Below the pieces are notes generated by a model, which saw nothing but the letters and a program-made list of their open reading frames with translations, made no database searches and was not told the origin of the DNA. A program made the position numbers and the translations under genes. 34,763 nt of DNA from Candidatus Polarisedimenticolia bacterium (GTDB taxonomy: Bacteria; Acidobacteriota; Polarisedimenticolia; Gp22-AA2; AA152): the NCBI GenBank assembly GCA_035764505.1, contig DASTZC010000115.1, forward strand, positions 1-34,763. The letters are read 5' to 3'. This document shows positions 8,900-13,314 of the stretch, piece after piece. How positions within the stretch are numbered: position 1 is the stretch's first letter; each line of letters starts with the position of its first letter.

Positions 8900-9895
8900 T
8901 CAAGGCGTCTTGGAGGCCGAGGGAGAAGGCTTGGCAGCCAGCTCCGCTTCGATCTGCCGCTTCATCCCCTCGAAGGATCGATCGTTCACCTTCTTGCCGT
9001 TGATGTAGAGGCTGGGGGTCCCAGTGACCTGGGCGTCGGCGCCGTGTTTCATGTCCTCGGCGATGATCTTCTCCAGCTCGGGATCCTTCTGGTCCTTCTC
9101 GAATTTCGCCACGTTGAGCCCGATCTCCTTGGCGAACTCGCTGAAGCGGAAGTTTCCCTGCGGGTCTTTCATCGTCGCCTGGTTCTTGAAGATCAGATCG
9201 TGCATCTCCCAGAACTTCCCCTGGCGCTGGGCCGCGAGGGAGGCGAGCGCCGCGGGCTTGGCGTTGGAATGGAACGAGAGCGGATACTGCTTGAAAACCA
9301 GCTTGACCTGCTTCGGGAAGGCCCCGAGCACCTGCTCGAGGGTAGGCAAAAGCCTAGCGCAGTAGGGTCACTGGTAGTCGGAGAACTCGACGATCGTCAC
9401 CGGGGCCGATTTCGGTCCCTTGTAGGGATCGCCTGTGGTGTCGATGCTGAAAACCTGGTTCGGGTCGGCCGCCGGGGGAGCCGGCGGGGGAGTGGCCGCC
9501 TTCGCCAGCGCGGCCTGGAGATTCGCCTTGGCCACCGCGGCGCTCTTCCCGTCCTTGAAATCCTGGATGACGCCTTTCGCCAGCGACAGGCTGCGACTGC
9601 ACCCCGGGTCCTTGACGCGGCACTCCGCCAACGTCATACCGCAATTGCAGTTGCACCGCGTCTCGTTGAGGATTTGGGTGGCGGCGGCGATCTGCTCAGG
9701 CGTCAGGCCTGAAAAATCCAGCCCGCTCATCTGGGCGGGTTGCGTCGGCTGAGTCGGCGCAGCGGGCGCAGCAGGCGTGGGTGCTGTCGCTTGGGCCAGC
9801 AGGCCGCTTCCGCAGGCCGCCGCCAGCGACAAGACGAGAATGGCCGCCGGCGCGCGCCGTCGCGCGAGCGGATGATTCGGGGCGAGTCGAGTCAT
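8900..9895 (-). CDS. DsbA-like thiol oxidoreductase, predicted selenoprotein (Sec176, UPYC active site)
   Basis: Read through the TGA at 9370-9368, this is one 331-residue periplasmic protein. Residues 1-36 are a signal sequence; a lipobox-like AAAC at 25-28 makes a lipoprotein possible. Residues 81-99 form a Cys cluster, CNCNCG then C92 and C99. A Pro/Ala linker follows, then a thioredoxin-fold domain that begins APVTIVEFSDYQ-U176-PYC179, where relatives have CPYC. The fold continues on the far side of the TGA with FKQYPLSFHSNA, the helical insert and the cis-Pro motif VTGTPSLYING. A SECIS-like hairpin lies at 9322-9342. The start is ATG 9895, with AAGGAG 9 nt upstream. The family shuttles disulfides in the periplasm. 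The true stop at 8902-8900 is also TGA. A nonsense mutation or base error remains possible. Confidence 0.85.
9322..9342 (-). promoter_or_regulatory. Putative bacterial SECIS hairpin
   Basis: In the mRNA, counted from the base after UGA, nt 26-28 (CCC) pair with 44-46 (GGG), U29 is bulged, nt 30-34 (CGAGC) pair with 39-43 (GCUCG), and the loop 35-38 is AGGU. The loop begins 34 nt after the UGA, inside the roughly 16-37 nt spacing reported for bacterial SECIS elements. A 5'-side bulged U and a GGU-containing loop are also hallmarks of the E. coli fdhF element. A second small hairpin, UAGGC-UUUU-GCCUA at 9343-9356, lies immediately before it and lacks the loop G. Confidence 0.65.
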
Positions 9896-9956
9896 GGAGA
9901 ATCGCTCCTTGGCAAAGGTCGAGCCGAGACCGTGGAGATGAAAAGCAAACCCAGCG

Positions 9957-9984
9957 ATTATAGGCCGGAGAGGCCGTATGTCAA
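9957..9984 (-). promoter_or_regulatory. Consensus sigma-70 promoter of the selenoprotein gene
   Basis: On the minus strand, TTGACA (9984-9979) and TATAAT (9962-9957) are separated by 16 nt. Both hexamers match the consensus perfectly, and the leader to the ATG at 9895 is about 55 nt. This argues that the gene is actively expressed and not decaying. Confidence 0.75.
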
Positions 9985-10077
9985 TGGGCCGCTGCCGTGC
10001 CGCGGCCTATCTGGGAGCCTTCCAGACGCCGTGCTATACTCACCGGACATCCAGGAATCGAACCGGGAGAACCCATC

Positions 10078-10647
10078 GTGCAGCACTCGAAGCGACGCCT
10101 TTCGCGTCTTGCGCCCCTTCTGATCGCCCTCGTGGGGGCCGCCTCGCCGGGGCTGTCGATGCCCGAGCCGCAGGAAGCACCGGACGTGCCGCCGCTCGTG
10201 AGCTCGCCCTGGCGGAGCTGGCATTACAACGCGACCCCCGAGCAGGTGCGTTCCGCTTTCGAGTCGCTGTTCAAAGAAGACGGCCTCAGCGTCAAGGAGC
10301 AGGACCGCAAAGCGGGTACCTTCACCACCGATATGGCCGAGTTCAACGACAAGAAATTCGGCGTGGAGCTCTCGATCCCGCCCCCCAAGGCGGGTCCGAA
10401 ATACCCCTACTTCCAGACCAACGACATGCGCTCCGGACGCTTCGGAATCGAAGCCAAGATCTACCCCGCCGCAGGGGCCGAGGTCCGCGTCGACATCCGG
10501 GCCCTCCTGGAGATCCGCGGCATGGACCAGAAAGCGAAGACGATGCGCTGGATTCCGCGCTACTCCAACGGGGCGGTCGAGCAGCAGTACTTCACCCGTC
10601 TGTCGTTGCGCCTGCTGGAGTCCGCCGGCCAATCGGCGCAGCGCTGA
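10078..10647 (+). CDS. BamC-like exported protein
   Basis: The protein has 189 residues and starts at GTG 10078, with GGGAG about 8 nt upstream. A signal peptide covers about residues 1-28. The mature part contains SWHYNATPEQVRSAFESLFKEDGLSVKEQDRKAGTFTTD, which resembles the helix-grip repeat of BamC/NlpB, the accessory lipoprotein of the outer-membrane protein assembly complex. No clear lipobox is visible (GLSMPEPQ), so anchoring is uncertain. A TATACT at 10035-10040 may be its -10 element, but no good -35 is seen. It diverges from the selenoprotein gene and is followed after 4 nt by the DUF1015 gene. Confidence 0.5.
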   Translation: MQHSKRRLSRLAPLLIALVGAASPGLSMPEPQEAPDVPPLVSSPWRSWHYNATPEQVRSAFESLFKEDGLSVKEQDRKAGTFTTDMAEFNDKKFGVELSIPPPKAGPKYPYFQTNDMRSGRFGIEAKIYPAAGAEVRVDIRALLEIRGMDQKAKTMRWIPRYSNGAVEQQYFTRLSLRLLESAGQSAQR

Positions 10648-10651
10648 TCTT

Positions 10652-11920
10652 ATGGCACGGGTCGTCCCGTTCCCGGCGCTGCGCTTCGCATCGCGGCTCG
10701 CCGCCGAGATGGATCGCCTCGCGGCGCCCCCCTACGACGTCATCTCCGAGACCGACCGCGCCTCCTACGAGGCACTCCATCCCAAGAACATCGTCCGGCT
10801 GATTCTTCCCGGGGAGGCGGGCCGGACGGAGGACGGGTCCTTTTATTCCGGCGCCGCGGCCTTACTGCGCCAGTGGAGGACGGAGGGGACCCTGGTGCAG
10901 GATCCCGCTCCCGCTTTCTATCCCTATCGACAGACCTTTCGAGGTCCCGACGGATCGGTGGCTTCACGCACCGGATTTCTCGGTGCGCTCGAGCTGCCGG
11001 CGCCGGAGGCTCGCGGTGCGTCGGTCCTGCCCCATGAGAAGACCCTCGAGGCGCCGCGGCGCGACCGGACCCGGCTGATCGCCGCCTGCCGTGCCAATCT
11101 GAGCCCGATCTTCCTGCTGCATCCCGACTCCCGCGGCGAAGCGGGAGCCTGTCTCGAAGAAGCGACGACGCCGGGTCCTTTGATTTCTTTCACCGACCGG
11201 GGAGAGGTGCGGCACGAGCTCTGGGTGGTGCCTGAGGGTCCGCTCACCGGGCGCCTTTCCCGCGCGCTGGATTCCGAGTGGACCCTCATCGCGGACGGAC
11301 ATCACCGCTACGAATCGGCCGTGGCGGTGCGCGACAGCCTCCCGGATGAGAAGGGGGCCGGCTTCGTGCTGGCCTTCTTCTGCAGCCTGAAGGATCGCGG
11401 CTTCCGCATCTTCCCCATCCACCGGCTGCTGAAGGCGGCGCCGGCCGGGATCGGCGCCGAGCCGTTGCAGCAGATCCTGGGCCGCCGCCACCCGGTCGAG
11501 ATCCCGCCCGATTCCGCCGGACCCCGGGAGCTTCGCGAGGCGCTCGGGGCGGCGGGGGAGAGAAGCTTCGGCGTCGTGCCGCGCGGCGGCGCTCCGTTCC
11601 TCTTGAAGGTGAAACCGCAGGCGGAAGCGGAGGACGGGTCCGCGGGCGATCTGGACACCGTGGTGCTGGAGCGCCAGGTCCTGTCGGCCGCTCTCGGAGT
11701 AAGCCCCGCCGACATCGCCGCCGGAGCGCTTGGCTTCACCCCCGACGCCGCGGAAGCCTTCCGCCAGGTCCGCTCGGGCGAAGCCTGGGCAGCCTTCCTG
11801 CTCAATCCGCTGCGCACCGAAGCTGTGGTGCGCGCCGCGCAGTCGGGCATTCGCCTGCCGCAGAAGAGCACCTACTTCTATCCCAAGGTTTTCACCGGCC
11901 TGGTCATCCGTCCGTTTTGA
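10652..11920 (+). CDS. DUF1015 family protein
   Basis: The protein has 422 residues, the usual family length, and begins MARVVPFPALRF with the typical N-terminal signature DRLAAPPYDVISE and HPKNIVRLILP. The other hallmark, LIADGHHRYESAVAVRD, is present near residue 213. It has no signal peptide and is probably cytoplasmic. The family is widespread in bacteria and archaea; I assign no reaction. It starts 4 nt after the stop of the BamC-like gene, so the two are likely co-transcribed even though their predicted locations differ. Confidence 0.88.
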   Translation: MARVVPFPALRFASRLAAEMDRLAAPPYDVISETDRASYEALHPKNIVRLILPGEAGRTEDGSFYSGAAALLRQWRTEGTLVQDPAPAFYPYRQTFRGPDGSVASRTGFLGALELPAPEARGASVLPHEKTLEAPRRDRTRLIAACRANLSPIFLLHPDSRGEAGACLEEATTPGPLISFTDRGEVRHELWVVPEGPLTGRLSRALDSEWTLIADGHHRYESAVAVRDSLPDEKGAGFVLAFFCSLKDRGFRIFPIHRLLKAAPAGIGAEPLQQILGRRHPVEIPPDSAGPRELREALGAAGERSFGVVPRGGAPFLLKVKPQAEAEDGSAGDLDTVVLERQVLSAALGVSPADIAAGALGFTPDAAEAFRQVRSGEAWAAFLLNPLRTEAVVRAAQSGIRLPQKSTYFYPKVFTGLVIRPF

Positions 11921-12080: not shown

Positions 12081-13244
12081 CTAGGGGCGACGGGGGGTGA
12101 GAGGGGAGAGGGCGCGAAGGCGGGTGGCTACTTCCACCAGCGCGGCCGCCGCCTGATCCGCCATCGAGTCGGCTTCGCCGGCTCCAAAGCAAAAATCGAG
12201 CGCGCCGCGCGCCAGCACCGGCTCGATGCCGATCGCCTCGAGGACGTGGGAGGCTTTTCCGGCGCCGCGGGTACAGGCCGATCCGCTGCCGGCGGCAATG
12301 CCGGCATCATCGAGCAGACCGAGCGCGGCTTCCCCCTCCACGTAGCGCAGGCAGAGGCTCAGGTGTCCCGGGAGCCGCTCTTTTCGATCCCCGGTGGCGA
12401 CATAGTCCTCGAGTTCCTGCTCGAGACGCGAGCGCATCCTGGCCTCGAGATCGCGGCGGCGCCTCACCTTCTCGGCTGATTCCGCGCGGGCCCACCGCGC
12501 CGCCTCGCCGAAGCCGACGGCGAGCGCGACGCTCGGAGTGCCGGAGCGCAGCCCTCCTTCCTGGGTTCCCCCTTCCAGCTGCGGCTTGAGGCGCACTCCC
12601 TCGCGCACCACGAGCGCGCCGATTCCCTTGGGTCCGTGGAACAGATGCGCTGCGAGCGACAGGAGATCCGGCTGGATCTCGGACCAGAGACCGGGGAACA
12701 ATCCGGCGGTCAGCGTCGCATCGGTGTGCAGCAAGGCGCCGGCGGAGCGGGACAGGCGGCGGATCTCCACAAGCGGCTGCATCGTTCCTATCTCGCCGTT
12801 GGCGTGCATCACCGACACCAGTGCGGGCGGTGAGCCCAGCAGGCCTTCGAGGTGATCGAGATCGACCCTGCCCCGCGGATCGACCCGGAGCAATTCCACC
12901 CGGGCCCCTTCTTCGATCAAGCTCTGCGCCGCGTGCAGCACCGAGAGATGCTCGATCGCCGACACGACCAGGCGCGCGGAGCGCCGCCCCTTGGCCCGGA
13001 AAACACCGCGCAGGGCGAGATGGTTGGCCTCGGTCGCGGAGCTGGTGAAGACCACCTCTTCCGGCAGACAGCCCACCAGTTGAGACACTTCCTCCCGCGC
13101 CTTCTCCAGCGCCGCGCGCGCCACTCTGCCGCGGGAATGAGGCGATCGAGGGTCGCCGAACTCCTCACCGAGAAAGGGGAGCATCGCCGGCAGGATGCGC
13201 GGATCGGGAAGAGTGGTCGTGGCATTGTCCAGGTAGATCGACAC
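12081..13244 (-). CDS. Cysteine desulfurase-like protein lacking the PLP lysine (probable pseudoenzyme)
   Basis: The protein has 387 residues and starts at GTG 13244, with GAGGAG about 7 nt upstream; the frame remains open further upstream but is not family-like. The class V aminotransferase fold is clear: YLDNATTT at the N-terminus, FTSSATEANHLA, EH before SVL, RSGT, and the mobile loop SGSACTRG with its Cys. Compared with E. coli IscS, however, N155 is Gly (HANGEIG), Q183 is Leu (DATL), S203 is Ala and the PLP-binding K206 is Leu (AAHLFHGPKG, codon CTG). The substrate-binding Arg of the IRFSLG motif is Asp (LDFCFG). H104 and H205 are kept. Desulfurase activity by the usual mechanism looks impossible. 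A structural, sulfur-carrying or regulatory role is conceivable. Confidence 0.85.
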   Translation of the reverse strand: MSIYLDNATTTLPDPRILPAMLPFLGEEFGDPRSPHSRGRVARAALEKAREEVSQLVGCLPEEVVFTSSATEANHLALRGVFRAKGRRSARLVVSAIEHLSVLHAAQSLIEEGARVELLRVDPRGRVDLDHLEGLLGSPPALVSVMHANGEIGTMQPLVEIRRLSRSAGALLHTDATLTAGLFPGLWSEIQPDLLSLAAHLFHGPKGIGALVVREGVRLKPQLEGGTQEGGLRSGTPSVALAVGFGEAARWARAESAEKVRRRRDLEARMRSRLEQELEDYVATGDRKERLPGHLSLCLRYVEGEAALGLLDDAGIAAGSGSACTRGAGKASHVLEAIGIEPVLARGALDFCFGAGEADSMADQAAAALVEVATRLRALSPLTPRRP

Positions 13245-13314
13245 GCGGTCTCCTCGCGAGGGCCGGATCCCGCGGGGCTCGCGGGAAAAACGAGGTTCAA
13301 GGATAACACCGGCA

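Follow-up and report, generated by a model that had tools for sequence, protein, structure and literature searches.

A bacterial clade of IscS-like proteins without the PLP lysine, and a putative non-catalytic partner of IscU-type scaffolds in Polarisedimenticolia

A gene in the genome of a Candidatus Polarisedimenticolia bacterium, located in a stretch of 34,763 nucleotides (the window), encodes a protein with the fold and the cysteine loop of IscS, in which the PLP lysine is replaced by leucine. The loss of catalysis is well supported, and we consider it nearly certain that this is not a conventional PLP-lysine desulfurase. The protein belongs to a clade of Lys-less IscS proteins that spans at least two bacterial phyla, and we give an even chance to the possibility that it serves an IscU-like scaffold as a non-catalytic partner with its Cys loop, and not as an enzyme.

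The gene, located on the minus strand, encodes a product of 387 amino acids, of the aminotransferase class V fold, IscS/NifS type, as recognized from both profiles and the predicted structure (an AlphaFold2 model, mean pLDDT 84), which matches human NFS1 (Z 49), E. coli IscS (Z 48) and Archaeoglobus fulgidus IscS (Z 47.5). The scores of the protein against the NCBIfam NifS/IscS equivalogs fall below the curated cut-offs: 354.6 versus 530.75 for TIGR03402, 292.7 versus 548 for NF010611, and 278.7 versus 643.2 for TIGR02006. Its residues were mapped by alignment with E. coli IscS and with the canonical IscS of its own genome, and the features of the window are as follows.

10652..11920, plus strand: DUF1015 gene, convergent neighbor kept throughout the order (profile; context only)
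12081..13244, minus strand: Lys-less IscS/NifS-like protein, GTG start (NifS/IscS family profiles, Aminotran_5, structure match)
13250..13255, minus strand: ribosome-binding site GAGGAG, 5 nt upstream of GTG (read from sequence)
13244-13242, minus strand: start codon GTG (read from sequence)
12795..12797, minus strand: Gly150, replacing Asn155 (alignment)
12711..12713, minus strand: Leu178, replacing Gln183 (alignment)
12642..12644, minus strand: Leu201 (codon CTG), replacing the PLP/Schiff-base lysine, K206 of E. coli IscS (alignment)
12351..12353, minus strand: Cys298, without variation in the order; the canonical IscS of these genomes has Ser here
12255..12290, minus strand: Cys loop GSGSACTRGAGK, including Cys324 and the clade-specific Lys330 (alignment)
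12273-12275, minus strand: Cys324, equivalent to the catalytic Cys328 of E. coli IscS, invariant in 57 of 57 compared sequences
12195..12197, minus strand: Asp350, replacing the substrate-carboxylate-binding Arg of the RFSLG motif (alignment)

The alignment bears out all the substitutions that an earlier note had read from this DNA, of the PLP lysine by Leu, N155 by Gly, Q183 by Leu, S203 by Ala (Ala198 in the window protein) and the substrate Arg by Asp, as well as its claims of an intact frame, ribosome-binding site and Cys loop; the strand, which it left unstated, is the minus strand. H104, D180, H205, and T243 (E. coli IscS numbering) are retained. Residues 323-328 of the Cys loop are modeled with low confidence, which is compatible with a flexible loop. 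With this set of residues, the protein would be expected to lack desulfurase activity. A specific tie between Cys298 and the loss of the lysine was considered and dropped, as Lys-containing relatives (L088, L094, and L168, for example) have Cys298 too.

A profile search covered 396 genomes of the window's phylum and samples of two further groups, reached via named Chloroflexota and haloarchaeal records. It yielded many further Lys-less proteins, and a tree was built without the active-site columns. All bacterial Lys-less proteins, those of the Chloroflexota group as well as those of the window's phylum, form one clade (SH-aLRT 100), and the close homologues of the window protein all lack the lysine. 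The archaeal Lys-less proteins, among them the crystallized A. fulgidus protein (L198 and its neighbor match 4eb5 chains A and C, respectively, almost perfectly), form a second, separate clade in the best tree, with a single origin of the bacterial and the archaeal proteins not rejected (AU p 0.437). The residue in the position of the lysine varies by group, being Leu or His in the window's order, Gln (with one Pro) in the cousins linked to iscU, and Asp in Archaea, while Gln183 is lost in all three groups. One protein of the Chloroflexota group (L163:1492-2658), branching near the window's order, has Gln for the lysine with N155, Q183, and H205 still present, and by its residues looks like an intermediate. 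Another, an archaeal iscU-linked IscS (L197:2075-3238), has Thr for the lysine, Asp for H104 and His for Q183, with the substrate Arg retained, possibly representing another loss of catalysis. We found no description of the bacterial Lys-less clade in the open literature searched, and its novelty is provisional. The principle of a Lys-less IscS is already known from Archaea, and this precedent (A. fulgidus IscS), along with the large size of the family, was absent from the earlier note.

The gene context of the cousins connects this clade to IscU. In most bacterial members outside the window's order, the Lys-less gene immediately precedes iscU on the same strand, with spacing from a 10-bp overlap to 9 bp (42 bp in one case), and the archaeal Lys-less genes are likewise directly upstream of iscU. 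Of the 24 iscU-linked genomes of the window's phylum, 17 encode a single NifU_N protein, namely the product of the gene after the Lys-less one; SufB/D was undetected in 17, and 12 combine both features. These are draft genomes, most of them at least 90% complete, which limits the calls of absence. The second IscS was read in 11 of these genomes; its Lys, Arg, and Cys are all present, and no iscU is found in the fetched stretch around it. Judging from this gene content, these cells appear to keep the sulfur donor apart from the scaffold partner. The IscU proteins paired with Lys-less proteins are extended at the C terminus, and the extension closes with a CP(Y/F)C motif, as in ECPYCEG (L089-L093, L096, L098, L099, L108-L116, L118-L121, L123, L124). 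The two-gene IscS-IscU layout of the cousins is shared with the MIS (MisSU) minimal system (Garcia et al., as cited in PMC12442378 and PMC12192291), whose MisS is described as a cysteine desulfurase; in the available parts of these two sources no Lys-less MisS was found. Unlike the misS-misU pair, the window gene is solo.

The best precedent for the window protein is A. fulgidus IscS2 (PDB 4eb5, 4eb7, 4hvk, 4r5f), which has no desulfurase activity because the lysine is replaced by Asp, and which gives a Cys ligand to the cluster of IscU (PMC7585200). The two share the IscS fold (Z 47.5, 39% identity in the structural alignment), the loss of the PLP lysine, Gln183 and the substrate Arg, and the retention of the Cys loop, along with a short C-terminal tail. 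They differ in the replacement of the lysine (Asp versus Leu), in the location of the gene (directly upstream of iscU in A. fulgidus only), and in belonging to separate clades (single origin AU p 0.44). Methanosarcina acetivorans IscS1, proposed to act like A. fulgidus IscS, is similar to the window protein in being a Lys-less paralogue beside live IscS paralogues in one genome (PMC7585200), but it is archaeal and encoded with IscU1, and the likeness is by description, not by sequence. The canonical IscS, NifS, and NFS1 proteins resemble the window protein in fold, in the Cys loop and in a large part of the PLP pocket, but possess the Schiff-base lysine and the substrate-binding residues that it is missing.

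The explanation we prefer is that the window protein would be a catalytically dead IscS, from a bacterial Lys-less family partnering the Fe-S scaffold IscU, in which the IscS fold and the flexible Cys loop would be kept for docking on an IscU-type scaffold. Cys324 would be offered to the scaffold to bind the cluster, as its counterpart does in A. fulgidus IscS, or else to accept a persulfide, and the sulfur would be supplied by separate live desulfurases or as sulfide. The docking on IscU and the ligation of the cluster by Cys324 are both inferred. A non-catalytic role in Fe-S assembly is probable, because the protein is kept in all sampled genomes of the order and because its cousins are co-encoded with IscU, and the comparative evidence points to scaffold partnership as the ancestral role. 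The roles put forward in the earlier note, those of a persulfide carrier, a regulator or a dimer partner of a true desulfurase, are conjectural. As the gene is no longer beside iscU in its own order, the identity of the partner is the weakest step, and we give IscU an even chance of being that partner.

The window's own branch is a derived one, solo, away from iscU and convergent to the DUF1015 gene: no iscU is found near the Lys-less gene in the order. An operon with the DUF1015 gene was considered and rejected, the two genes being convergent, and a search of the DUF1015 literature returned nothing useful. The DUF1015 gene is part of a conserved block adjoining the Lys-less gene in the order (window 9044-11920), together with two small uncharacterized ORFs. 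Two loci of the Chloroflexota group, L163 and L164, branch next to the window's order (SH-aLRT 91-92), and as they also have no iscU within 1.5 kb, the detachment from iscU may predate the order. A long stem branch leads to the window's group, and in the IscU-contact helices, delimited with the help of the E. coli complex (PMC2854127), the order shows lower conservation than the iscU-linked cousins (0.68 versus 0.83 and 0.59 versus 0.82). The short C-terminal tail was dropped as an argument against IscU binding, as A. fulgidus IscS, crystallized with IscU, is equally short. The solo position across the order and in L163 and L164, the long stem, the less conserved helices and the conserved convergent neighbor would all fit a branch that, after leaving the iscU operon, acquired a new role without IscU; it might form a heterodimer with the live IscS, regulate it, or carry thiols in a different pathway. 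We nevertheless consider such repurposing unlikely, if deserving of attention, as the branch has kept its Cys loop and the C-terminal LSP(L) motif, and a shared operon or a covarying partner was not found.

As the earlier note had proposed to check, live-looking desulfurases are encoded elsewhere in the same genome: a Lys-containing IscS followed by an IscU-type gene and a gene for an A-type protein (L002; A-type identity assigned by eye), a Lys-containing NifS-like protein adjoining mnmA (L003), and a SufS alongside a SufU-type gene and two SufB/D genes. The NifS-like protein (L003:1441-2613) has an unusual SSGKLGGACGSG motif where SAHKxxGPKG is expected. The gene for a second IscU (L207 / L251:5330-5725) is not part of an isc operon; its neighbors are complex I-type (Oxidored_q6, Fer4), methyltransferase and MoaA-like genes. 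Cys37 is missing from every IscU found in the order, SufU apart, and from both paralogues where a genome has two (L056:2379-2864, L207:1486-1881, L204-L214, L219, L222, L223). The position is occupied by His, Thr, Ser, Gly, Lys or Glu, with C63 and C106 kept. Such a pattern of residues could reflect a changed function of the ISC route in the order, or a ligand coming from another protein, and as these cells have SUF, the ISC route may be secondary. The Cys37-less IscU proteins are counted against IscU as the partner, along with the solo gene, the presence of SUF and the less conserved contact helices. A tentative scenario, somewhat short of an even chance, is that in several bacterial families without SUF the only IscU of the cell works with a dead IscS, with sulfur provided by a solo desulfurase or as sulfide, and that in the window's order the dead IscS then became detached and was kept for a changed role, in cells whose IscU proteins are without Cys37.

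A further alternative is that PLP or a similar ligand is still held in the pocket, with no Schiff base, for residual or different chemistry, or that Lys330 takes the cofactor. The order shows no variation at H104, D180, H205, and T243, the residues that hold PLP in IscS, nor at Lys330 (window 12255-12257), located just past the Cys loop, where canonical IscS has Glu. Lys330 is the only invariant candidate lysine in the order: Lys206 of the GPKG motif was rejected as a substitute, being Gln or Pro in 7 of the 11 order members. The Lys330 position is Lys or Arg in all iscU-linked cousins, but it is Arg in 4 of 25 cousins and Gln in Archaea, which makes it unlikely as a substitute PLP lysine, and thus the takeover of the cofactor by another lysine, which the earlier note had named as a way to be proven wrong, finds no convincing candidate. 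With Q183, N155, and the substrate Arg also lost, and with the A. fulgidus analogue reported inactive (PMC7585200), we regard retained or altered pocket chemistry as improbable.

Conservation within the order shows that the protein is maintained. A Lys-less orthologue is present in 12 of the 12 sampled genomes, with Leu in 11 and His in one (G001), and each of the relatives of the same genus, family, and order (G001-G011) encodes an orthologue that retains the loop Cys. The reading frame is unbroken in the order members, the stops flagged in three matches being natural C-terminal terminators. Pairwise dN/dS values in the order are 0.13-0.27, similar to the 0.10-0.31 of the canonical IscS encoded by these genomes. 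They are rough, as dS is near saturation in several pairs; the least saturated pair, G004-G010, gives a dN/dS of 0.22 at a dS of 0.63. Across 11 order members 88 columns are invariant, and the conservation of the Cys loop exceeds the protein average (0.79 versus 0.69). Amino-acid identity, compared between the same two genomes, is 63% for the Lys-less protein versus 76% for the canonical IscS. Purifying selection thus acts on the protein, which nevertheless evolves faster than its canonical counterpart. A read error or a chance loss is rejected because all 12 sampled genomes of the order have the Lys-less orthologue; the earlier note had argued against a read error from the codon. Its proposal of a pseudoenzyme under selection stands, given the clade-wide loss of the lysine, the intact frames, dN/dS of about 0.13-0.27 with no sign of relaxation, and the Lys-containing desulfurases of the same genome. 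A functionless decaying remnant or a sequencing or assembly artefact, which the loss of several active-site residues and the divergence above that of canonical IscS might suggest, is exceedingly improbable, with a sequencing error or pseudogene ruled out by the 12 orthologues and dN/dS well under 1, with the lysine lost in an intact frame across the order members and with the 88 invariant columns.

Fe-S assembly is usually pictured as driven by its desulfurase. We now have a large bacterial clade in which the IscS body and the cysteine are kept and the catalytic residues are dropped. One practical consequence is a warning for annotation, as Lys-less members (L108:5244-6422, L039:5992-7176, and L188:2013-3164) pass the curated cut-off of NF002806, “IscS subfamily cysteine desulfurase,” and are thus probably labeled, wrongly, as active cysteine desulfurases. 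In many genomes, the only IscU found is encoded together with the dead IscS as its partner. This makes it testable whether IscS can do its non-catalytic job by itself, be it docking on IscU, providing a ligand or relaying persulfide; the question was raised by A. fulgidus and is so far known from Archaea.
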